DNA from: Kiritimatiellia bacterium
Lineage (GTDB): Bacteria; Verrucomicrobiota; Kiritimatiellia; RFP12; UBA1067
Assembly: GCA_017450695.1 (NCBI GenBank)
Contig: JAFSTA010000199.1
Coordinates: forward strand, 1-44,308
Reading direction: 5' to 3'
Length of the DNA stretch: 44,308 nt
The notes below the pieces were generated by a model that saw only the letters and a program-made list of their open reading frames with translations, had not been told where the DNA came from and ran no database searches. Shown here in pieces: positions 21,593-41,813 of the stretch. The translations under genes and the position numbers were made by a program. Positions within the stretch are counted from its first letter, which is position 1. Each line of letters opens with the position of its first letter.

Positions 21593-21636
21593 GGCAATCG
21601 ATTGCAGTCGATCGCCTTCGATAGCTATCGATGATT
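21593..21636. repeat. 10-bp-period array of NNTCGANNGC
   Basis: About four units (AATCGATTGC, AGTCGATCGC, CTTCGATAGC, TATCGATGAT) in the gap between malic enzyme and rnfD. It is one of seven arrays with this exact 10-bp phase; the other six lie between 37.4 and 40.4 kb. Confidence 0.8.
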
Positions 21637-21660
21637 CACTACTCCCCACTCCCCACTGCC

Positions 21661-21701
21661 TTCTTCCCCGCCTCTCCGCTTCTCCGCTGGCGCGTAGCGC
21701 C
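21661..21701. repeat. Dispersed module with GGCGCGTAGCGCC hairpin
   Basis: A cctctccgcttctccgctgg phrase is followed by GGCGCGTAGCGCC, a 5-bp stem with a 3-base loop. The stop codon of the malic enzyme gene lies just right of it. The same phrase and hairpin recur at 23153-23193. Confidence 0.55.
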
Positions 21702-30343: not shown

Positions 30344-33300
30344 CTACTGAACCAACAATGAAACACTCCCCTTTCCTTTCAGCACGGCGGTACCGAAGCC
30401 GACGCCGCCGGTGACCGCGCCGAAGACGCTGAACTTGTTCTTCACGAGCTTGCCGCCCTTCACGGCATACACGACGAACGATCCCTTGAACAGCCCCGTC
30501 TTCGCCGTGTAGGTCAGCTTCAGACCCGACACGTTCGCGCCAGCGACCGTCACCGTGCCGCCCTTGTACGCCACCTTCGCCGCCTTGCCCGCGTCCCACT
30601 TCGTCCCGCTCACCTTCAGCGGGATGTCGAAGGGCGTCTGCGCAACCGCGCCCGGCACAAGACCGGACAACTTCACGTCGTCCAGCTCGACCGTCCGCGT
30701 CCCGGCAGCGACGTTCCCCTTCGCGCCGATGCCCTGTACCTCCCACGCCATCGTGAACGCGGGCTTCACCGTGTTCTTCCACGGGGTCAGCGCCGTCACG
30801 TCCACCAGCTGGCGCGAGTTCCTGTCGAACCACGCGACGAACCCGAACTTGCTCTTCTTTGCGTAGATCACCGGGACGCAGCAGTAGGCATCGCCGACGG
30901 TCATCATGCCGGCAGCGGTCACCTTCGTGCCGTCCGCCAGAACGCCCGAAACCTTCGCCTTGCCCTTCGCCGCCATCGTGACCGCCAGCGTCGAGTAGCC
31001 GCCCTGCGCGAATGCGTCCGCGTTCTCCGGTCCAAGCGCAAGAACGTAACTCTTGCCGCTGAACTTCGACAACACGGAGAGCGCGGCGGCATCCTTCGCC
31101 TTCGCCGCGTCCGCGCCGCCCTCCAGCGTTCCGACCTTCGCAACCGTCCCGCCGACCGCGTTCGCGCCGAGCGTCAGTCCCGCCAGACCGCCGCCGCCCG
31201 CGCCCGTGACGAGGTTCACGGTACCAGTGACCTTCGTCTTCTTGCCCGTGCTGAGCGGGACGAACGTCAGCGTCGCGGCGGAGGTCGTCTTACCCTTCGC
31301 AGGCTTCTTCACAGCCAGAGAGAACGTCCCGGCGATCACCCCATCGCCGTCCAGCGCGTATCCGTTGTAGGTGCATCCCTTGTACGCGGACGACAACCCG
31401 CCGTACACGGGGGCGTCATGCAGCGCATACTCCGGCGCGATCGCGATCCAGTAGGCGTACAGCCCCGTCAGACCGGCGGGCACGATGCTGGTCGCCGTCA
31501 CCCGTTGCCCCGTCCCATCCGGTCCGGTAAACCAACCGCCAAAGACAACCCCGTCCCGTGGCTTTGGTGTAGGCAGCACCCCAAACGGTTGCCCGACGAT
31601 CAGCGTCAGGTTGGTGGTCACACCGTTCACATTTATCTTCACCTGCGCCATCGCCGCCACCGTGTTCCACCACGCCGGATCGGTCTCTATCGGGTCGTTG
31701 TAGTGGTCGAATATGATTGTGGCGGAGTTGGTGATGATGGTATTTGCTGGGGCGTCGTCGCGCACTTTGATCCTGTATCGGACGTAGCCCTCGCCGCAAT
31801 GCGTGTCGTTGTTGGGAGGAAGGAAGCCGCCTGTCATGTCGGTTGGCCATCCCTCGCTGTCGCCGTTCGGGTCGATGATCCGCAGATACCACTGGGCAAC
31901 GCCGGTTTCTTCATCGACCGCAAACTCCGTCTTGACGCTCGTGTTCGTGCCTTCCAATTGCTTTTCGCTCCAGCCCTCGTGCAGACCGCTCAATCCGTTA
32001 TCGACGTTGTTGTTGTAGCCAACATCGAGCATTGTGAGCGACGACCAGTCGAGCGCGTCGGAGAGCGGGTTGAACACCTCCACGCACGCGGCGGCGGCAT
32101 CGGCGTCGGACTTGTTCTCGAAGAAGATGGTGTAGGTCAGCTCTTGTCCGGACTTCACCAGCCGCGCCTCGCCAACGCCCTCGTCCCCTTCCACCGCGTT
32201 CGGGTCGCACGACTTCGGCTCTTTGGAGCTGTCGTCGTCCTCGTCCTCGCCGTCATCGTGCTCCGGGTCGTAGCGCACGTCGAGAACGCACGTCGTCACG
32301 TCGTCCTCCTCGCCGCTCGACGCGACCGTCAACTGCACCGTGTACTGTTCCCCTTCGCAGACGAGATTTCCATCCGCATCAGTCGTCGTCGGCAGTTGCC
32401 CGTGAACCGTCACCCACGGGAAGTCAAGCTGCTGGTAGTCGTTGCCAGAACCGAAATCGGTCATGCGCATCGCGACCGTACCTTGCTTGCCAGCCGTATC
32501 AATTAGCTCGAAGCGATTGACGGTAATATCCTCCTCGTCGTCCGTCGTATAGGATTCCGAGGCGTCCAGATTGATCGACCACACGCCGTCAGAGTTCGCG
32601 TACACAGTCACGACCCCTCCCGGCTTCAGCGCATTCTCGCTCAACTGGTGCGTCGGCACAGCGACAAGTAGGCGGGCGGATTTGAGAGAGGCGGCCTTGC
32701 GCTTGGGCACCGACTTGGAGATGATGGCATGTACTCCACTTGGTTCAGCATTGACATTTTGCATGATGAAATTGTTTGTCCAATACAAATCATGCCTAGG
32801 CAATTGTGATAGACTTGAAAAACCGACAACGTTTCCAGCGGATAACACCATCAGAACCTTACGATATTCATATTCAGTATCACCCTCGTTCTCCTTCCAA
32901 GCAAGTGGTCTATCTGCGCCAAACAAATCCTCTGGAATATCAAGCTTAATACTCTCCTTCTGGGCATTTCCACATGGACGAGGATATTCACATACGACCT
33001 CTCCAATTTTCTTGTAAAATTTCGTAGGATCGCCACTTTGCGCCAATGTGTCAACAAGATTCGTAATATTCGAGAAGGATGTTGGCAAACCTTCATCTTC
33101 CAGTCCCTGTAAGTCAACAAGCCATGCCGTCACGGTACCGTGTTCTTTACAAAGAAGCGGATGCCATTCGCGAGTGTTGCTAAACAATTCACTGTAGTCA
33201 ACCGATAGGTTGTCCGCAAGGTTTATGATGGAAACCTTCAATTCCATACCCCCATCGATCTTGTCAGGTATCGTAGCGTCCACCTCCACATCGGCCGTAA

Positions 33301-36300
33301 TGTTCCATGCCTGTTTAAGCGCTCTTAACGACTTACCGTCAACTGAAACTGTCTGATCCGCTATCGCAGTCGAAAGATACCGCCAAGGGGTACGCCTCTG
33401 CCCCGCAAGTTCACGACAATCCAAAAACTCAAGAACATTATCGCGAATAAGTCCGGCAAAAACAGAATTTCCTGGCATGGTCATGTCATTACCCGCCAAT
33501 GAGTGCCAAGACCCCGGATAGCCAGTAAAATTGAAACCGAGGTTTCTGTATGCCAATGGTTGCTTGATTGTTTTGAGGAACCACTGGTGTGCCCAGGAAT
33601 GTCGATTTAGTTCCCCATTCTTGGACAATCCCCATAACTGCATTGCACCAAGATACCATTCGTGGAAGTCACCCTTCCGAATCAAGGCAAAATTGTAATG
33701 CCCGTACATTTCTCCAGTTTCCTCTAGCGACATATCGAACGACGACTTGTAAAATTCCACCTGTCCGCAAAGTAATCGAATAACTCGTATCCATTCACTT
33801 GGTGGCATTGTGTTAAACGTATGAACTCCGTTATCTGTCGTTGAGGTGTCCAATCCTATGAAACGATTGAATACCCCCGTACCATTCCAATAAGTCATTA
33901 TATTCGCTGCAACATGTGCACCATGACTGTGCCCAATCAACATTGTATTTGAAGGAACAATACCCATTTTCTCCAGATTCCTTTTCGCCTCGTTTACCGT
34001 CCTAGGAATATTTTGTGCCGAGCCTTTGAAATACTTGCTTGCAGTCCCTGGATTTACACCAAACATCACTCGTGCGCCATCTCCCCAGTTTACAGCAAGG
34101 ACATTACCCTTTCCCGACAATGCTTTTGCCGTCTCCACGATCCAATCTGTGGAAATGTTATTATCATTTCCGTGGCAAATAATGTAAGTGACCTGATTTG
34201 GATCTATCGCCTCACCTGTGCAAACCGAGTAGATATTATTCTCTTCTCTTACTGCCAGCGCCCATCTGCTACAAGCTGAACACCATTTCCAGACACTTCC
34301 ATCACGTGGATACTCTTTCCATGCATTTGAATTTTTAGTACACGTCAAGTAATGGGTACCACATCCGCCATCTCCCTTAGTTCCCTGTAATTTTATAGTC
34401 CCCCTCCCTGTGATATCTGAGGAACTCGTCCCTCCCGCCTCGGCGTTCTCTGCGGTCTCTGCGTGAGATTCATCCCCCGCATCCAACATTCCCGCCGCCT
34501 TGAGATACTGGTAGCGGCCAAAAGCCGACTTAAGCGTTTCGTAGTCCGTCGTCTGCGGCTCGACAGTGCCAAGCCATGTGCCGAGGTTCGTGTAGAACGC
34601 CGCGTATGTCGATCCGATCACCGTGCGCAATTTCGCCACGGTCGCATCGTCATCGGCGACATGATACAACACCCAATCATCATCATACAGCTCGCGAAGC
34701 GAGAACTTCGCCGATTTTGCCCCCTCTTGCGCCGCATGGTACGACCGCAGCTTCCACTTCACGTTTTCGGCGAGGATCGTTACGGGGATCGCAAGGCGTT
34801 GCGGTTCGCCGGGACGGAGCGTGCCAACGGGCGCTTCCGCCGAAAGGCCCATCACCTTCACGCTGTTGGTATAGACCGCGCCGTCGATTTTGAAGACCTG
34901 CCCTTGGGAAATCAACTCGAACACCGGCGCGGGCATGTCCGCGTTGCCCGTGTTCTCGTAGTCGATATAGACGGTGAGGGTGCGTCCGCGCCGTACGCTC
35001 GCCGGGGCGTCCAGCGTAGCCGTCAGCTTCGGCGCGGCGGGGATGTTCGCGACGGTGACGGCGGCGGGGAGCGTTGCGGTCGCGCCGTCCGCGCCAACCA
35101 TCTTCACGTCGTAGGTCGCGCCGGCGGTCAGGCGCGAGCAGTCGATCTGCGCCGTCATCCGTGTTGGCGAAACAACGCTCGACTGTAGAACGGGCGGCTC
35201 GCCCGTTCCGAACGCGCTGGCAGCGCGTTCTACTACCACCGTGCATCCTTCCGCGAAGTTAGCGCCGTCGATGACGAGGCCCGTCGTGCCCGTGTAGGGG
35301 AGCGTGGCGGGGCTGACGGACTGCACGGCGAGCGCGGCGGATTCGAGCGTCATGGAGAACGCCGCGCCGCTCGCGGAGGTCGTCTCGACGAGCAGATACG
35401 CCGTCGTCACGCCCGCCGGAATGCCGATCAAGCCGCCGTCCGCGCCCACCACGGCGCGGGCGGAGTAGCTGGACGCGCTTGGCATAAAGCCGCTGCCGAG
35501 ATAGACGACCGTGCCCGCCGGAGCGTTGATCCGCGCCACCATCGGCTCCGTGCCGTCCAGCGCGAACTTCGCGCTCGCGGGCATCCCCTTCTTTGACGTG
35601 CCGCTGAAGCCGTCCGCCGCCGCGCGGGCGGGGAGCGAAATCTCCACCGTTCCCGCGCTCGTCGCAATGTTGTTCGTGACGTTCGCACCCTCGTAGATGT
35701 CGCGCTCCACGTTGATGCCCACCTGGACGCGCCACGTGCCCTCCGCCTCAGGCGGCACGGTGAACAAGGCGGAGAACGTGTTCGTCGCGCCCACGGCGAG
35801 GGAAGCGGACTGAACGATGATGCCGAGGTCGAGCGAATACCCGCCATCCGCCGAAACGAGCGACACCTTGTCGCGCCACGAGCCGTCGATCGCCTGCTTG
35901 CCCACATTGGCGACGTCGTAGGAGATTGTAAGGGTGTCGCCAACGGTCGCAGCAAGCTGCGACCCTCCCGCAACGGGAGGGACGCAATTTATTGCGTCCG
36001 CCGCCAAGTCGTTCGCGCTCATTCCGCCCACAATCTCGTAAATGCCGATGTCGGGAGCGCCGTCGTCGCGCGGCTGTCCGTAGTAATCGTATTCCGGCGC
36101 GTTCGCGGCATCACCTGCGTTGACGCACGGCGACCCCTTCTGAATCCTGAAATCGCCATTCTCCGCATCAACAAACAGCGGATCGCCCCAGATGTTACCG
36201 TTGGAGCCGACAAGGCCGCATGACTGCGAGCCAATTTCTACAGGATTCCAGAATAGGCAGTTTGCCGTTGTGAAACGCGACGAAGGATCTCCGTAGGTGC

Positions 36301-39300
36301 CGGAATTCAACTCGCACCAGCCGTAGCCGCATTCCGCAAAGATGCAATTCCGATAAACCGGGTTGCCATTCCAATTTGACCAGTAGCACACGCCTACGCT
36401 GTTCTGAAAGAAAATGCAATTGACGTATTCGTTCTTCGAGCCACGGTACGGAGCTGTCGCCCACCCCGTGTCGCTAATTATGGTATTCTTGACAGAAATC
36501 GTTCCGCCCCAATTCCAAATGCCATCATAGAGCGCATAACCTACAAAACAGCAATCCATGTTCAAAGCGCCGGAACCGCTTGTTTCAAGTATGCCCGTTT
36601 CGTTGCTCGGAGCAGCATACATGGCCTTGCAGTATTTCAGATTGGCCGTTCCGCTGACGTAGATGTATCGCCAATCTCCCCCGGCGGGTCTCGTCTTCTC
36701 GCCATCGCCGTTGGTATCTCCACCAAATTCATCATCCTTGATGGACGTGAATACGATGGGCTGCGCCCGCGTACCGATGGCGCTCAGCGTCGCACCGCTG
36801 TTAACGGTGAGTGCCTTGTTTTCCGCGAACTTCACGACCGCACCAGGCTCGATGGTAAGTGTCACGCCCGACGCGACAGTTACATCTCCCGTCACGCAAT
36901 AGACATTGTAGCCCCGCCATACCTCGTTCCGTGAAATCGTGCCTCTAAGCGTGACCGTGGGATCGGGATGATAACGGTACTGCGTGGCATCGTTTCCGCT
37001 TACGCCATTGAGTACATACATATCCGCAACAGGCATCGAGAGATTACCGTCCTGCAGCGTGTCGCCGCCCACCGTATCGTCACTGGCGTGTGTGAAGATC
37101 ACGCCGTCCGCAATACATTGACCACCAGCTTCACACACAATCCCCGAACCGTCCATGAACTTGACTATCGTCCCCGGCGCGATAGTGAGCGTAGTGCCGT
37201 TCTTCACCGTGACCGTATCGGTAACGAGATGTGTTATGTCAGCCGTCCACGTCTCATCTGCGACGATCATGCCATCGTGCAAAATGACATTGTCGTCCAG
37301 CACCGCGAAACGCGCCGTCAGCGTTTCGTCTCCCGCCGCATGCGTGAAGCGATAGAGGCCTGGCGTTTCGGGGCGGGTCCAAGAGAGACTTCCGCTATCG
37401 ACAGCATTCGAGAGCAATCGAGTGCCATCGACAGCAACTTCGCAACTCACGGCGTTGCCCCAGCGCGGCGAATAGGTGATAGGTTCCTGCTCCTTCGCGA
37501 TCAACGTGCCGCCGAGCCCGCGCGTCTCGATGAACGTACCCGCACTCGGAGTCGATTCACCGTTTTCGATCACGTCGCTCACGGAGATGCGTCCGTTGTA
37601 GATTCTTACGATAGCCGCGTCGTTCGCTAGCTTGACGCTCCGCGCCCGCGTGGCTGAAAGCGCAAACGCCTCCGTGCCATTTGGCGTATAGGTGGATTTG
37701 AGCGGGATTTCTATGTATTTCGTCCCCTCGCTCGTGCCCGTCCAAGAAAGTGTCCCGGAGGTTGAAGAGAATGGGAGGGACGCGCTTGTCGCGTCCGAAA
37801 CCGCCCAATCTATCGAAAACGGCGCGTTGCGCGTGCCGCTCACCGAAACGGGGATGCGCACGACGCCGCTTTCGATTGCGACAATGGCGTCGTGCAGTTC
37901 CACTTCGGGATACGGCCGTACGGCGGCGTCCGGCGTCACCCAATAGCCGTTGTCGCTCCACAGTCCGCCGTTGAGCGTGACGATCTCGTAGGAGTTCGTG
38001 GCGAAGTCGCCGTCGCGCAGGTTGGTGTCGCCGCCGTAGGAATCGTTGCCGATGGAGGCGAAGAACACGTCCGCGCCTTCCGCGCCGTTGATCTGCACCT
38101 TGCCGCCGGACAGCACCTTGATTCCCGCCATTTCGCAGAACTTCACGATCGTGCCCTCGGTGATCGTGAGCGTCACGCCGTCCGGCACCGTCACCCAGTT
38201 GCGCACGACGTGGGCCTTATCGCTCGTCCATGTCGTATTCGATTGCAATCGACCGCCTTCGATTGCAGTCGTTTGCGAATCGAGCTTCAATATCGCCGCC
38301 GTGTTCGTGCCGCTTGTGAGCGTCTGCCAGCCCGTCGAAAGCGAGGCCGTGTTCCACGCGCTCGCCGTGCCGCCGGCGGGATCGCCCTTGTATTCCGTGT
38401 TGCTCACGAGAGCGTGACCGACCGTCCCCTCCGCGCGCAGCTCCAGCCGTCGCCCGGCACTCGCCGCGCTCGTGGAATACTCCAATGAAGCCACGTCAAT
38501 ACCGCCCTTGAACACTTTCACTTCGCACGTCTCGTTGGCGCGTGTCACGCTCCGCGCCAGCGTTAAACGGAGCGTGAACGTTTCCACGCCGCTCGGCACG
38601 TAGGTGGATTTGAGCGGGATTTCAATGTATTTCGTACCCTCATCGGAACCCGTCCAGGAGAGCGTACCGGAGGTTGCGGTCGCCAGAGGGGACGCCCCTT
38701 CCAACGCCCAGTCAATCGAGAACGGCGCATTGCGTGTGCCGCTCACCGTCACAGGCACACGAGCGACGCCATCAGAAATGCTCGCCAGCGAATCGTGAAG
38801 TGTCACTTCGGGATAGCCGCGTAGCTGCGCGTCCGGCGTCACCCAATAGCCGTTGTCGCTCCAGAGTCCGCCGTTGAGCGTGACGATTTCGTAGGAGTTC
38901 GTGGCGAAGTCGCCGTCGCGCAGGTTCGTGTCGCCGCCGTAAGTGTCGTTGCCGATGGAGGCGAATACCACATCCGCGCCTTCCGCGCCATTGATCTCAA
39001 CCCTGCCGCCGGACAGCACCTTGATGCCCGTCCCCTCGCAGAACTTCACAATCGCGCCTTGGCTGATCGTGAGCGTCACGCCGTCCGGCACCGTCACCCA
39101 GTTGCGCACCACGTGGGTTTTCGAGTTGTCCCAGGTGGTGTTCGATTGCAGTCGACCGCCTTCGATTGCTGTCGATTGCGGATCGAGCTTGAGAATCGCC
39201 GCCGTGTTCGTTCCGCTCGTGAACGTCTGCCAACCCGTCGCGAGTGAAGCCGTGTTCCATGCGCTCGCCGCGCCGCCGGCGGGATCGCCCTTGTACTCCG

Positions 39301-39487
39301 TGCCGTTCACGAGGGCGTGGCCGACAGTTCCTTCCTCGCGCAGCTCTAGATGCCGCCCGGCACTCGCCGCGCTCGTCGAATAGTCGAGCGTTGAGAGATC
39401 GATGTCGGCGTTGGCATTTAATGCGACTGCTATCGACAGCAATCGAATGCTTCCGATTGCTATCGCTCGAATGCTGTCGAATGCCAT
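30344..39487 (-). CDS. Giant secreted mosaic surface protein with lipase-like domain
   Basis: A 3,047-residue secreted protein; signal peptide residues 1-27 (cleaved near ANA-DI). Domains in order, with approximate residues: two near-identical 300-residue repeats (28-330, 328-633), a related third segment (633-830), a beta-helix ending in a choice-of-anchor-Q-like DPLFVD...GSPCVNAGD tail (830-1153), a CARDB domain (1157-1287), a TIG-like domain (1385-1483), and a second CARDB (1487-1580). Next come an alpha/beta-hydrolase insert (1697-2130, lipase-like, GHSHGAH with Ser1854), a DUF11-like domain (2425-2610, starting near CDPNA), an InlB-type repeat (2613-2686) and a Gly/Ala/Lys-rich beta tail. 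The C-terminus lacks an LPxTG or PEP-CTERM signal. Several dispersed repeats are embedded in frame. The ATG at 39487 lies 14 bases past the upstream stop codon; a TTG at 39520 is an alternative. Confidence 0.85.
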   Translation of the reverse strand: MAFDSIRAIAIGSIRLLSIAVALNANADIDLSTLDYSTSAASAGRHLELREEGTVGHALVNGTEYKGDPAGGAASAWNTASLATGWQTFTSGTNTAAILKLDPQSTAIEGGRLQSNTTWDNSKTHVVRNWVTVPDGVTLTISQGAIVKFCEGTGIKVLSGGRVEINGAEGADVVFASIGNDTYGGDTNLRDGDFATNSYEIVTLNGGLWSDNGYWVTPDAQLRGYPEVTLHDSLASISDGVARVPVTVSGTRNAPFSIDWALEGASPLATATSGTLSWTGSDEGTKYIEIPLKSTYVPSGVETFTLRLTLARSVTRANETCEVKVFKGGIDVASLEYSTSAASAGRRLELRAEGTVGHALVSNTEYKGDPAGGTASAWNTASLSTGWQTLTSGTNTAAILKLDSQTTAIEGGRLQSNTTWTSDKAHVVRNWVTVPDGVTLTITEGTIVKFCEMAGIKVLSGGKVQINGAEGADVFFASIGNDSYGGDTNLRDGDFATNSYEIVTLNGGLWSDNGYWVTPDAAVRPYPEVELHDAIVAIESGVVRIPVSVSGTRNAPFSIDWAVSDATSASLPFSSTSGTLSWTGTSEGTKYIEIPLKSTYTPNGTEAFALSATRARSVKLANDAAIVRIYNGRISVSDVIENGESTPSAGTFIETRGLGGTLIAKEQEPITYSPRWGNAVSCEVAVDGTRLLSNAVDSGSLSWTRPETPGLYRFTHAAGDETLTARFAVLDDNVILHDGMIVADETWTADITHLVTDTVTVKNGTTLTIAPGTIVKFMDGSGIVCEAGGQCIADGVIFTHASDDTVGGDTLQDGNLSMPVADMYVLNGVSGNDATQYRYHPDPTVTLRGTISRNEVWRGYNVYCVTGDVTVASGVTLTIEPGAVVKFAENKALTVNSGATLSAIGTRAQPIVFTSIKDDEFGGDTNGDGEKTRPAGGDWRYIYVSGTANLKYCKAMYAAPSNETGILETSGSGALNMDCCFVGYALYDGIWNWGGTISVKNTIISDTGWATAPYRGSKNEYVNCIFFQNSVGVCYWSNWNGNPVYRNCIFAECGYGWCELNSGTYGDPSSRFTTANCLFWNPVEIGSQSCGLVGSNGNIWGDPLFVDAENGDFRIQKGSPCVNAGDAANAPEYDYYGQPRDDGAPDIGIYEIVGGMSANDLAADAINCVPPVAGGSQLAATVGDTLTISYDVANVGKQAIDGSWRDKVSLVSADGGYSLDLGIIVQSASLAVGATNTFSALFTVPPEAEGTWRVQVGINVERDIYEGANVTNNIATSAGTVEISLPARAAADGFSGTSKKGMPASAKFALDGTEPMVARINAPAGTVVYLGSGFMPSASSYSARAVVGADGGLIGIPAGVTTAYLLVETTSASGAAFSMTLESAALAVQSVSPATLPYTGTTGLVIDGANFAEGCTVVVERAASAFGTGEPPVLQSSVVSPTRMTAQIDCSRLTAGATYDVKMVGADGATATLPAAVTVANIPAAPKLTATLDAPASVRRGRTLTVYIDYENTGNADMPAPVFELISQGQVFKIDGAVYTNSVKVMGLSAEAPVGTLRPGEPQRLAIPVTILAENVKWKLRSYHAAQEGAKSAKFSLRELYDDDWVLYHVADDDATVAKLRTVIGSTYAAFYTNLGTWLGTVEPQTTDYETLKSAFGRYQYLKAAGMLDAGDESHAETAENAEAGGTSSSDITGRGTIKLQGTKGDGGCGTHYLTCTKNSNAWKEYPRDGSVWKWCSACSRWALAVREENNIYSVCTGEAIDPNQVTYIICHGNDNNISTDWIVETAKALSGKGNVLAVNWGDGARVMFGVNPGTASKYFKGSAQNIPRTVNEAKRNLEKMGIVPSNTMLIGHSHGAHVAANIMTYWNGTGVFNRFIGLDTSTTDNGVHTFNTMPPSEWIRVIRLLCGQVEFYKSSFDMSLEETGEMYGHYNFALIRKGDFHEWYLGAMQLWGLSKNGELNRHSWAHQWFLKTIKQPLAYRNLGFNFTGYPGSWHSLAGNDMTMPGNSVFAGLIRDNVLEFLDCRELAGQRRTPWRYLSTAIADQTVSVDGKSLRALKQAWNITADVEVDATIPDKIDGGMELKVSIINLADNLSVDYSELFSNTREWHPLLCKEHGTVTAWLVDLQGLEDEGLPTSFSNITNLVDTLAQSGDPTKFYKKIGEVVCEYPRPCGNAQKESIKLDIPEDLFGADRPLAWKENEGDTEYEYRKVLMVLSAGNVVGFSSLSQLPRHDLYWTNNFIMQNVNAEPSGVHAIISKSVPKRKAASLKSARLLVAVPTHQLSENALKPGGVVTVYANSDGVWSINLDASESYTTDDEEDITVNRFELIDTAGKQGTVAMRMTDFGSGNDYQQLDFPWVTVHGQLPTTTDADGNLVCEGEQYTVQLTVASSGEEDDVTTCVLDVRYDPEHDDGEDEDDDSSKEPKSCDPNAVEGDEGVGEARLVKSGQELTYTIFFENKSDADAAAACVEVFNPLSDALDWSSLTMLDVGYNNNVDNGLSGLHEGWSEKQLEGTNTSVKTEFAVDEETGVAQWYLRIIDPNGDSEGWPTDMTGGFLPPNNDTHCGEGYVRYRIKVRDDAPANTIITNSATIIFDHYNDPIETDPAWWNTVAAMAQVKINVNGVTTNLTLIVGQPFGVLPTPKPRDGVVFGGWFTGPDGTGQRVTATSIVPAGLTGLYAYWIAIAPEYALHDAPVYGGLSSAYKGCTYNGYALDGDGVIAGTFSLAVKKPAKGKTTSAATLTFVPLSTGKKTKVTGTVNLVTGAGGGGLAGLTLGANAVGGTVAKVGTLEGGADAAKAKDAAALSVLSKFSGKSYVLALGPENADAFAQGGYSTLAVTMAAKGKAKVSGVLADGTKVTAAGMMTVGDAYCCVPVIYAKKSKFGFVAWFDRNSRQLVDVTALTPWKNTVKPAFTMAWEVQGIGAKGNVAAGTRTVELDDVKLSGLVPGAVAQTPFDIPLKVSGTKWDAGKAAKVAYKGGTVTVAGANVSGLKLTYTAKTGLFKGSFVVYAVKGGKLVKNKFSVFGAVTGGVGFGTAVLKGKGSVSLLVQ
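34432..34472. repeat. CTCTGCGG-type dispersed repeat inside the giant gene
   Basis: The sequence ggcgttctctgcggtctc followed by tgcgtgag matches the intergenic phrases at about 3500-3560 and in other gaps, but here it is in frame and encodes a SHAETAENAEAGG-type stretch just before the lipase-like domain. Confidence 0.6.
35185..35233. repeat. REP-like double hairpin inside the giant gene
   Basis: Outer arms GTAGAAC and GTTCTAC (7 bp) enclose GGGCG-GCT-CGCCC and GCGCT-GGC-AGCGC. The unit is read through in frame, encoding roughly ERAASAFGTGEPPVL in a TIG-like domain. Similar palindromes in non-coding DNA are at 41788-41813 and 42102-42126. Confidence 0.75.
35945..35999. repeat. Three consecutive REP-like hairpins inside the giant gene
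   Basis: GGTCGCAGC-AA-GCTGCGACC (35945-35964), CTCCCG-CAA-CGGGAG (35965-35979) and GGACGCAA-TTTA-TTGCGTCC (35980-35999) abut one another. On the coding strand they are read as the NCVPPVAGGSQLAATVG-type stretch at the start of a CARDB domain. Confidence 0.75.
37393..37436. repeat. 10-bp-period NNTCGANNGC array (giant gene)
   Basis: Units CTATCGACAGC, ATTCGAGAGC, AATCGAGTGC and CATCGACAGC in a 10-bp phase, within the giant gene near the RLLSNAVDSG segment. Confidence 0.75.
37778..37796. repeat. REP-like hairpin in the second 300-residue repeat
   Basis: GGACGCG-CTTGT-CGCGTCC, a 7-bp stem. The equivalent position of the first repeat copy has a different, shorter insert, so the flanking protein sequences (NAPFSIDWA and TSGTLSWTG) are identical but the middles differ (10 versus 13 residues). 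Confidence 0.7.
38237..38284. repeat. 10-bp-period array in copy 2 of the duplication
   Basis: ATTCGATTGC, AATCGACCGC, CTTCGATTGC and AGTCGTTTGC in phase. It is the counterpart of 39141-39188 in copy 1 and encodes part of the TAIEGGRLQSNTTW stretch. Confidence 0.75.
39141..39188. repeat. 10-bp-period array in copy 1 of the duplication
   Basis: GTTCGATTGC, AGTCGACCGC, CTTCGATTGC and TGTCGATTGC in phase, followed by GGATCGAGC. It encodes the PQSTAIEGGRLQSNTTW-type stretch. Confidence 0.75.
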
Positions 39488-39500
39488 CGAGTGCTGTCGG
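39423..39500. repeat. 10-bp-period array encoding the giant protein's signal peptide
   Basis: Units such as TATCGACAGC, AATCGAATGC, TTCCGATTGC, TGTCGAATGC and CATCGAGTGC in phase. The ATG of the giant gene is inside this array, so the signal peptide is translated from it. Confidence 0.8.
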
Positions 39501-40334
39501 TCATTTCCGTTCCTCAGCAATGTTCCGAGTGCCCTTACATGCCGGATAGTTTGTACATCCCCAGAAATCGCCTGTCTTGCCGTGCCTCACGCGCATTACG
39601 CCGCCGCACACGGGGCAAGGCGGGGCGTCTTCGTTCACGGTTTGGCGCTGGTTACGCTTCTCCTCCACACGCGCCGCCGTCATGCGCTCGGAGAATCCGC
39701 CCTCCTTCACGAACTCGTCGCCGTGCTGTTGGAGGAGCTTATCCAGCATATGGAGGGCTCGTCCAATGAGAATGAGCATCGCATTGGCGAAGACGATGCC
39801 GGATTCTGTTGTCGATTGCTTTCGATTGCAATCGATAGCGCCCGATTCTCGATGGCAATCGATAGCTGTCGATGGCTCTCGATTGCTACCGAACCATTTC
39901 TCAAACTTCGCACGCTGGGTGATGATGTGCCGCGAGAGGTCGTAGTTTATGTCGTCGCCGTAGTCTGCCGCGTCAAAGCGAACTGCGTACACCGCCTGTG
40001 CCTCGGCTGAACGCTGCGGCCACGGCGGCAGGTTCTTGTCAAGAAGCCATGTGAGGTAGTCGTCGCGCAGCTCGCAGAGACTCGCCTTGACGACGTCGAT
40101 AAGCTTCAGCGTCATCTGCATCGAAGTCGCCTGGCGTTCGCTGCCTTCGGTGAGGTTCTTCACGCCCGAGCGTGCCGCCTGGGCCATCTGGTCGAACTGG
40201 CGTCCGCAAGGGGCGTCCGCGAGCGTGAGAAACCGGCGGCAGAACACGAGCGTTTCCAGCTGGACAATGTTCATCAAGATGTAAACGTCAAGCCGCTTGT
40301 AGCCAGTTGAATTCTTAAAAAGTTGCGTAGCCAT
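39501..40334 (-). CDS. Four-helix-bundle suffix protein with C-terminal topoisomerase-type zinc finger
   Basis: A 277-residue protein. Residues 1-100 are a four-helix bundle of the TIGR02436/TIGR04258 kind (LFKNSTGYKRLDVY start, VKNLTEGSERQATSMQM, ELRDDYLTWL), related in fold to Avd accessory proteins of diversity-generating retroelements and to 23S intervening-sequence proteins. The C-terminal CPVCGG...FWGCTNYPACKG finger (about 243-268) is the zf-C4_Topoisom type and suggests DNA or RNA binding. Between them, residues about 148-176 (STAIDCHRESGAIDCNRK) are encoded by the array at 39808-39892 and are probably an insertion. It lies downstream of the SUMF1-fold gene and upstream of the giant gene. 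Confidence 0.82.
   Translation of the reverse strand: MATQLFKNSTGYKRLDVYILMNIVQLETLVFCRRFLTLADAPCGRQFDQMAQAARSGVKNLTEGSERQATSMQMTLKLIDVVKASLCELRDDYLTWLLDKNLPPWPQRSAEAQAVYAVRFDAADYGDDINYDLSRHIITQRAKFEKWFGSNREPSTAIDCHRESGAIDCNRKQSTTESGIVFANAMLILIGRALHMLDKLLQQHGDEFVKEGGFSERMTAARVEEKRNQRQTVNEDAPPCPVCGGVMRVRHGKTGDFWGCTNYPACKGTRNIAEERK
39808..39892. repeat. 10-bp-period NNTCGANNGC array inside the four-helix-bundle gene
   Basis: Units TGTCGATTGC, TTTCGATTGC, AATCGATAGC, then AATCGATAGC, TGTCGATGGC and TCTCGATTGC with one 17-base irregularity in the middle. The longest array in the window, it is translated in frame as a low-complexity insert between two conserved domains. Confidence 0.85.
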
Positions 40335-40363
40335 TAGATCGCCTTTCGCTTGTGGTTGTTTGT

Positions 40364-40411
40364 CTTTCGATTGCTGTCGGTTGCTGTCGATGGCAATCGA
40401 TTGCTATCGCA
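40364..40411. repeat. 10-bp-period array upstream of the four-helix-bundle gene
   Basis: TTTCGATTGC, TGTCGGTTGC, TGTCGATGGC, AATCGATTGC and TATCGC in phase. It lies in the 136-bp gap between the SUMF1-fold gene and the four-helix-bundle gene. Confidence 0.8.
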
Positions 40412-40470: not shown

Positions 40471-41706
40471 TCATTGTCCTGCGGAACAAGCGAGGCGGAA
40501 GCCGCTTAAGCCGGGCCCATAGTCGTTACAACGATACGCAGAACGGCAGCACTCGGCGCCTTCGTGCCAAGTTCCGCCACGTGTCACACGCCAAGAACCA
40601 GAGACTGGACCAATTGGGTCTGTTACATTCGATGAACCCAGATTATCCTGATACCAATCAAGGCAGTGTTCCGCCACGTTACCATGCATGTCATAGAGTC
40701 CCCAGGCATTCGGCGCGTATGAGCCGACTTTTGTGTGGTAGGAAGAATAGCCACCCATACCATCGCTCATGTTGTAGGAATACCGCCCCACCTCGGCCAT
40801 CGCCGCATCCTGGTCGGTGTTTCCCAAGTCTTTTCCATTGTTGAGGGCCGTGGTCGTCCCGGCGCGACAGGCGTATTCCCACTGCGCCTCGGTGGGGAGG
40901 TCGAGGTTTAGCGAGGTGCGAGCGCGTACTTTGCCGAGGAAGGAATCGGCGTCAACCTGACCGTGGCTCGGCCAGTTCGCACCAACGTATGACCCGCGGA
41001 TGTCGGTGTCGAAAACAGCATCCACGGGGCGCGTGTCGCCACGATACCTCGATGGCGTTCCGCCCGTGACGAGTTGCCACTGCTTCTGCGTCGTCTCGAA
41101 GACGGCCATGTAGAAGGGCTTGGAGATCGTCACGGAGTGCTGCGTCTCTCCTCTCGACTGCCGCCCCAGCTCCGTGGAAGGGCTACCCATCGTGAACGTG
41201 CCGGGCAGGATGAGCCGCAGCCACAGTTCCGTGGTTCGGCACGTGTCGCTCGTGAGGTCAGGCCCGGCCGCCGAGAAGCGGACGGGGTAGCTCGCCGCGT
41301 CCGCGCCGCCCGAGAGGTCGATCACGATGAAGGGCGCAACCCCACGGATCGCCGTCATCTTCACGGAGAAACTGGGGGTGTGATAATTCGGCATATCCTT
41401 CGCGGCGTTCCACGTCATGCGGTGCGTGCCCGCCTTTACCGTGCCGTTCGCGCCCTCGCCCGTCAGCGTGCGCATCTGGAGGCGCGCCCCCGTGTCGTTG
41501 TCGGTTCCCTCTGGGAACACATAGACATCCGCGTTCGCGTCATCACACACCACGGTGTAGTCGATATCGACTAGGCCGTTCCACGGGTAGCGTTGGACGG
41601 CCTTCACGTCCGTCACGCTCACCGCCGCGTTTACGGACGGGACAAGTCCCGTCCCTCCCAGAATCACCGCCAGAGCGGACACCAGCATCATTCGTTTCAT
41701 GCTCAT
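40471..41706 (-). CDS. Secreted SUMF1/FGE-fold protein without the catalytic cysteine pair
   Basis: A 411-residue protein with a signal peptide (MSMKRMMLVSALAVILGGTG, cleaved near VNA-AV). An N-terminal beta domain (VTDVKAVQRYPWNGLVDIDYT) spans about 30-135. A formylglycine-generating-enzyme-type domain (SUMF1, PF03781) spans about 155-411, with FTMGSPSTELGR, LPTEAQWEYACRAGT, GLYDMHGNVAEHCLDWY and RVTRGGTWHEGAECCRSAYR. Sulfatase-activating FGE uses two cysteines in the RGGSFxC...YC motif; here the first is replaced, so sulfatase activation is unlikely. Such C-termini are also target domains of diversity-generating retroelements. AAGGA lies eight bases before the ATG. Confidence 0.85.
   Translation of the reverse strand: MSMKRMMLVSALAVILGGTGLVPSVNAAVSVTDVKAVQRYPWNGLVDIDYTVVCDDANADVYVFPEGTDNDTGARLQMRTLTGEGANGTVKAGTHRMTWNAAKDMPNYHTPSFSVKMTAIRGVAPFIVIDLSGGADAASYPVRFSAAGPDLTSDTCRTTELWLRLILPGTFTMGSPSTELGRQSRGETQHSVTISKPFYMAVFETTQKQWQLVTGGTPSRYRGDTRPVDAVFDTDIRGSYVGANWPSHGQVDADSFLGKVRARTSLNLDLPTEAQWEYACRAGTTTALNNGKDLGNTDQDAAMAEVGRYSYNMSDGMGGYSSYHTKVGSYAPNAWGLYDMHGNVAEHCLDWYQDNLGSSNVTDPIGPVSGSWRVTRGGTWHEGAECCRSAYRCNDYGPGLSGFRLACSAGQ
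41635..41654. repeat. REP-like hairpin inside the SUMF1-fold signal peptide
   Basis: GGACGGGAC-AA-GTCCCGTCC, a 9-bp stem, read in frame as part of the GLVPSVNA end of the signal peptide. It is of the same type as 1084-1103 and 35980-35999. Confidence 0.7.
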
Positions 41707-41787
41707 CCTCGTTTTCCTTTCCTTCCTCGTTTTCAAATCGTCATTCTGCATACGGCGGCTGGGGAAAGCCGCCATCCCATTCCCTCG

Positions 41788-41813
41788 CAAACGGGCTGGC
41801 AGCCCGTTCTACT
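41788..41813. repeat. Palindrome AACGGGCTG/CAGCCCGTT, possible terminator
   Basis: AACGGGCTG-G-CAGCCCGTT followed by CTACT. The same palindrome with GTAGAAC and CCAGCCCG is at 42102-42126. On the plus strand it is followed by A-rich sequence; on the minus strand no U-run follows. Confidence 0.55.

Follow-up and report, generated by a model that had tools for sequence, protein, structure and literature searches.

Arrays of a 10-bp repeat unit in a Kiritimatiellia genome as the probable repeat part of insertion-like elements around four-helix-bundle genes

REP/BIME sequences with RAYT genes represent a known arrangement in which a gene is flanked by its cognate repeat, and gene-less repeats are dispersed between other genes. 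The four-helix-bundle fold is known from Avd of the diversity-generating retroelements. To our knowledge, the function of S23/IVP-type four-helix proteins has not been established since the intervening sequences (IVS) were discovered around 1990, and we also know of no established source for the dispersed short tandem repeats of bacteria. The Coxiella IVS, located in 23S rRNA, was described as a selfish element; it has an S23 ORF and terminal inverted repeats, and GACAGAT heptamers stand before the ORF in two or three copies, depending on the strain (PMC4990558). The Xanthomonas S23 protein is pentameric and built of four-helix bundles, its function not known (PMC4990558); solved S23 structures are 2GSC and 2RLD. 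Cyanobacterial STRR heptamers and the TAACTGA heptamers of Beggiatoaceae are dispersed and mostly intergenic, with a motif specific to the lineage (PMC4679880).

The window analysed here is a stretch of 44,308 nucleotides from a Kiritimatiellia bacterium (contig JAFSTA010000199.1), in which an earlier note had described seven clusters of a 10-bp unit with fixed TCGA and GC, and two variable dinucleotides (NN) between them. All seven were confirmed, and they are displayed with the neighbouring genes in Table 1. With a probability of roughly 0.6, we regard these arrays as the repeat part of a family of insertion-like elements around four-helix-bundle proteins, represented by TIGR04258 here and by TIGR02436/S23/IVP elsewhere.

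Table 1. Positions of the arrays and of the genes next to them in the window.
Feature	Position	Strand	Placement and remarks
Dispersed array	21593..21636		Intergenic, between an RnfD/NqrB-type gene and a malic-enzyme gene; part of a composite element
7/8-mer arrays, ACTCCCC and CTTCTCCG	21641..21688		Same composite intergenic element as the array at 21593; found by TRF
3058-aa ORF	30344..39520	-	CARDB, lipase-like and DUF7619 domains; carries four arrays
Array	37393..37436		Within the 3058-aa ORF; four units
Array	38237..38284		Within the 3058-aa ORF; lies in one of two copies of a protein repeat within the gene
Array	39141..39188		Within the 3058-aa ORF; its protein-repeat copy pairs with the one that holds the array at 38237
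Array	39423..39500		Abuts the 3' end of the four-helix gene; one phase jump; also translated as the first part of the 3058-aa ORF
Four-helix-bundle + 4helix_suffix (TIGR04258) + topoisomerase-type Zn-ribbon protein, 277 aa	39501..40334	-	Assigned from profile matches
Array	39808..39892		Inside the four-helix gene, about residues 150-175; two runs with a 17-bp phase jump
Array	40364..40411		Directly upstream of the four-helix gene, between its start and the FGE-sulfatase gene
FGE-sulfatase-domain gene	40471..41790	-	Adjoins the four-helix gene

The 10-bp period is genuine, as the window holds 34 matches to the two-unit pattern TCGANNGCNNTCGANNGC, while dinucleotide shuffles give a mean of 0.02 and a maximum of 1, and 19 of its 45 TCGANNGC words have a partner at +10, where random placement would give 0.05. 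The period is not as exact as had been described, because two of the arrays contain phase jumps (24 and 17 bp), and the TCGA/GC core recurs without being strictly fixed, since CCGA, TCGG and TCGC are also present. A pyrimidine opens the NN after TCGA in about 75% of cases, and the practical core is RTCGAY. The unit is self-complementary, and a distance of 5 bp separates its TCGA and GC dyads. At three sites (G013:C33:21563-21792, L052:5563-5747 and G026:C17:125-228), unit runs are broken by phase shifts, and higher-order periods of 49 and 38 bp result.

A genome-wide count, which the earlier note had proposed, also placed the 10-bp phase far above chance: in the host genome (5.03 Mb, 287 contigs) there were 218 + 210 two-unit matches against 8 + 7 for a reversed-pattern control, where forward and reverse counts are not independent and cover the same arrays, as the unit equals its own reverse complement. 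In about 296 kb of host-genome stretches, picked for holding arrays and used for counting both pair spacing and placement, TCGANNGC pairs at spacings of 10, 20 and 30 bp numbered 71, 39 and 12, against 0.2 expected per spacing. The concern that the arrays could be confined to duplicates of one locus applies only to a part of them: they are found throughout the genome, but those at 38237 and 39141 are partly duplicates of each other, because they lie in two copies of one protein repeat. The array at 21593 has near-identical counterparts on two other contigs (C64 and C98), and it recurs with differences on many more.

Regarding placement, five arrays of the window are indeed within open frames: the 3058-aa ORF contains four of them and the four-helix gene one. 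The impression that such arrays are often in genes is, however, local to the window: the host stretches contain 31 intergenic and 9 coding array segments, although 82% of this DNA is coding under a simple ORF model, and seven of the nine coding segments belong to the two adjacent genes of the window. Translation of 39423-39520, where the array forms the first part of the 3058-aa ORF, gives MAFDSIRAIAIGSIRLLSIAVALNANAD, which resembles a signal peptide; perhaps the array provides a secreted protein with its beginning, or else the ORF is possibly cut short at this point. Many of the intergenic arrays are parts of composite spacers together with 8-mer arrays, e.g., GGTTNGGT and CTTCTCAG, and in the host genome an 8-mer array was found within 250 bp of 12 of the 52 array sites, compared with 4% of random positions.

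The search for a DNA-binding protein gave a candidate: the protein whose gene is flanked by two of the arrays and interrupted by a third carries a Zn ribbon of the nucleic-acid-binding type. Its N-terminal helical part is followed by the suffix domain (TIGR04258, residues 181-226, E = 3.8e-15, 55.5 bits, which passes the curated cut-off of 40) and by the ribbon (Zn_ribbon_Top1, residues 240-273, E = 6.7e-12). The TIGR02436 (S23-IVP) profile scores below its cut-off on this protein (15.5 bits against 24, E = 0.015), which suggests at most a distant relationship to TIGR02436/S23-IVP. Orthologues occur in a congener and in other families, two of them (L158 and L246) with similar neighbour genes in a different relative orientation, and one full-length relative was obtained in a plasmid search. 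Homologues can be aligned before the internal array (residues 1-151) and after it (residues 177-274). The array is an in-frame insertion between the helix bundle and the suffix domain, many homologues lack it, and its point is exact against array-less ones (L121, L161, L165 and L246); inserts of other lengths occupy the same point in L088, L106/L231, L157 and L158. The structure model of the protein is weak (pLDDT 62), with the lowest confidence at residues 150-174, the array insert, as expected of a linker; in fold comparison of this weak model, the Zn ribbon gave the sole meaningful match.

The linkage of gene and array extends well beyond the window. Of 289 genomes sampled from the phylum, 154 carry TIGR04258, and all 14 controls lack it. 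When 60 TIGR04258 loci were fetched irrespective of arrays, 34 had an array inside the gene or at most 200 bp away from it, i.e., only about half of the loci were over the array threshold, compared with 10 of 255 nearby windows of the same size (p = 1e-20). The TIGR02436 genes were meant as a negative control but turned out to be bracketed themselves, so random ORFs and windows were used instead. At least one side carried an array in 27 of 30 TIGR02436 genes of Verrucomicrobiota and 21 of 22 of Pseudomonadota (90-95%), and both sides did in 17 of 30 and 13 of 22, respectively (57-59%), while the corresponding values for random ORFs (n = 366) were 22% and 4%; an array was counted here within 250 bp at a TRF score of 30, and the contrast persists at stricter thresholds. 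At the TIGR02436 genes, inverted copies predominate on the two flanks (34 loci, compared with 7 for direct copies), and several TIGR04258 flanks consist of an array plus an inverted array; in the window, the orientation of the flanks cannot be told due to the self-complementary unit. The sampled genomes are mutually related, with many incomplete MAGs among them, arrays that are short or diverged escape TRF, and the ORF model is simple. The linkage of four-helix genes to bracketing short arrays is general in Verrucomicrobiota and Pseudomonadota.

Each four-helix gene has a word of its own. Those of the host genome carry TCGANNGCNN, CGACANN, TTCTAGNNN, CTTCTCAG, GTTCCCC and GGTTNGGT, and CTTCTCAG-type arrays flank a TIGR02436 gene there; the octamers seen in the composite spacers are therefore words that belong to other four-helix genes of the host. 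Relatives of the proteins in other genera keep the word, both for CGACANN (L228, L233 and L239) and for TCGANNGC (L157, L158, L161, L231 and L246). Among 90 loci, the proportion of non-syntenic pairs that have repeated 6-mers in common rises from 0.4% for unrelated proteins through 2% and 13% to 42% for the closest ones, a rise that would also be expected from common descent of a gene and its flanks; as these may be inherited together, the match of motif and protein need not mean recognition.

The arrays are also dispersed in genomes that own the gene. GGAC arrays with a 9-bp period (at least 10 matches) were found in 33 of 154 genomes with TIGR04258 and in 3 of 135 without it (p = 2e-7), and the reversed GGAC control gave no significant difference between the same two groups; p-values and counts from the compared genomes are not phylogenetically independent. 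GGCAGTA arrays occur in 5 of 120 Pseudomonadota, four of which own a GGCAGTA-flanked TIGR02436 gene and have such arrays at other genome sites too; in the fifth there is a single uniform locus. When genome contigs were scanned with a four-unit pattern, the matches listed were mainly from Lentisphaeria and Kiritimatiellae, and eight of nine array-bearing genomes of this type carry TIGR04258. Many arrays without the gene are present in three genomes (G038, G132 and G215), and G048 has arrays with only weakly P0001-like proteins; such gene-less, array-rich genomes could come from gene loss, incomplete assemblies or independent origin. In a Lentisphaeria MAG (L041:1346-1649), the inverted repeats TCGCCCCTA...TAGGGGCGA enclose TCGANNGC arrays and resemble small non-autonomous elements. 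Oligosphaera ethanolica (G136:C1, L218), an isolate with a single contig of 5.73 Mb, has 761 GGAC 9-bp matches and long TCGANNGC arrays, and would be a good laboratory subject.

A discrete insertion can be seen at the nuoC-nuoD junction of one genus, where the two genes abut in 24 of 30 loci (gap of -1 to 9 bp), while in four loci they are separated by 477-478 bp consisting of an array, a TIGR02436 gene and an array; the remaining two contain an unrelated insert. TIGR02436 elements at nuoC-nuoD are present in L294, L295 and L299, the last with a different word (GGCGAAT), and the insertion site has possibly been re-used. In L329, this junction holds an unrelated ORF, about 110 aa long. The nuoC-nuoD element is a TIGR02436 relative of the TIGR04258 element of the window, not that element itself.

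Ordinary microsatellites, where polymerase slippage expands the units and the four-helix genes tolerate repeats or sit in repeat-rich intergenic DNA, are an unlikely explanation. Uniform arrays of the same pattern do occur in unrelated taxa without TIGR04258: TCGANNGCNN arrays were seen in L059, L096 and L112 (Granulosicoccus, the archaeon Haloparvum and Sphingomonas), and those of Oligosphaera are close to uniform. The TCGANNGC arrays of the outlier taxa from the four-unit scan were taken for ordinary repeats, as they are uniform and TIGR04258 was found in none of 11 genomes. Near-identical units without a linked gene, as expected of ordinary microsatellites, were not what we found in the arrays of the window, where the NN vary and a gene is linked, and slippage alone does not give fixed TCGA/GC with varied NN. 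The strong enrichment at four-helix genes over random ORFs, the inverted flanks, the motifs that track the protein and the identical motif scattered elsewhere in the genome all argue against it too.

Somewhat harder to sustain is a functional RNA, in which hairpins of the transcript are bound by the four-helix protein and cut by RNase III as in the IVS, with dispersed copies tuning mRNA stability. The inverted arrays around TIGR02436 genes and at several TIGR04258 loci would suit it, and RNase III does cut IVS stems (PMC4990558), but the TCGANNGC arrays exhibit neither hairpin covariation of the NN dinucleotides nor extra folding stability, and there was no Rfam match, rRNA or other, in the window or in 40 related loci. 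Short TCGANNGC arrays contain fewer perfect palindromes around TCGA, in which the dinucleotides on its two sides are complementary, than expected (0.030 against 0.071). Hairpin selection within the TCGANNGC arrays was rejected due to this depletion and the lack of NN covariation.

The earlier note proposed that the arrays are helically phased, so that a protein could dock on one face of the DNA. Docking sites of this kind for a nucleoid or regulatory protein now seem improbable. A spacing of 10 bp in the clade of the window and the Zn ribbon of the linked protein speak for such docking sites, but the arrays that bracket related four-helix genes have periods of 7, 8, 9 and 10 bp, which makes the gene-array linkage independent of 10 bp per turn, and the dispersed arrays have no uniform orientation relative to neighbouring genes. 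Helical phasing is unlikely as an essential feature. Least probable is a diversity-generating retroelement product, with the four-helix protein in the role of Avd and the repeats written by a reverse transcriptase: such an enzyme with the tail GGSWNNNARNCRSANRNNN / GGSWNNNARNCRSANRNNNW, as in these retroelements, adjoins the four-helix gene in L167 (at 135-1418), and an FGE-sulfatase gene is adjacent in the window, but the variable NN positions depart from adenine-only mutagenesis and homologues of this enzyme are found in 0 of 80 other TIGR04258 loci (L168-L247), an absence that largely refutes it as a general mechanism.

Returning to the insertion-like elements, we infer that the protein is the spreader of its repeat. 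By analogy with the pentameric S23/IVP fold, and with the Zn ribbon in addition here, it would recognise the cognate repeat, either in DNA form or as a hairpin of the transcript, and this recognition may help copies to arise at new places, with recombination, slippage or an RNA intermediate as candidate routes for adding units or moving copies. On this view the arrays would be a selfish element reduced to its minimum, without the gene, comparable to the REP sequences that accompany RAYT genes. More tentatively, and with the odds somewhat against it, this reading could be extended to four-helix-bundle proteins of several phyla as a new kind of mobility or repeat-generating factor, each recognising its own 7-10-bp word, and seeding and extending arrays at new sites, even within genes, which would explain many so far unexplained bacterial short tandem repeat families including the rRNA intervening sequences. 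In the open-access literature searched, we found no report linking four-helix proteins to dispersed short arrays. If each protein owns a repeat word, the function of these proteins and the source of the repeats become testable in one experiment.

Compared with the known systems, Avd differs in its linkage to a reverse transcriptase, which is not general here. The STRR and TAACTGA repeats have a 7-bp unit and no linked gene has been described for them, with four-helix proteins not mentioned in PMC4679880. As in REP/RAYT, cognate repeats are dispersed between genes, but the units here are tandem and 7-10 bp long, whereas REP are palindromes of about 20-40 bp, and the Y1 HUH (TnpA_REP) tyrosine transposase is absent, the Zn ribbon being the only Pfam match of the linked protein. 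The 23S rRNA IVS share with the elements described here a four-helix-bundle ORF, terminal inverted repeats and tandem heptamers by the ORF; an ORF bracketed by terminal repeats with short tandem units is what we found, and at the TIGR02436 genes these repeats are inverted. RNase III excises the IVS from the 23S rRNA in which they sit, while the present elements are located in protein operons and in intergenic DNA (0 of 40 related loci within rRNA) and have dispersed gene-less arrays, to which the window adds the suffix domain, the Zn ribbon and the 10-bp unit. Among known systems, the 23S rRNA intervening sequence comes nearest, and the elements here are IVS-like four-helix elements outside rRNA, with dispersed arrays.
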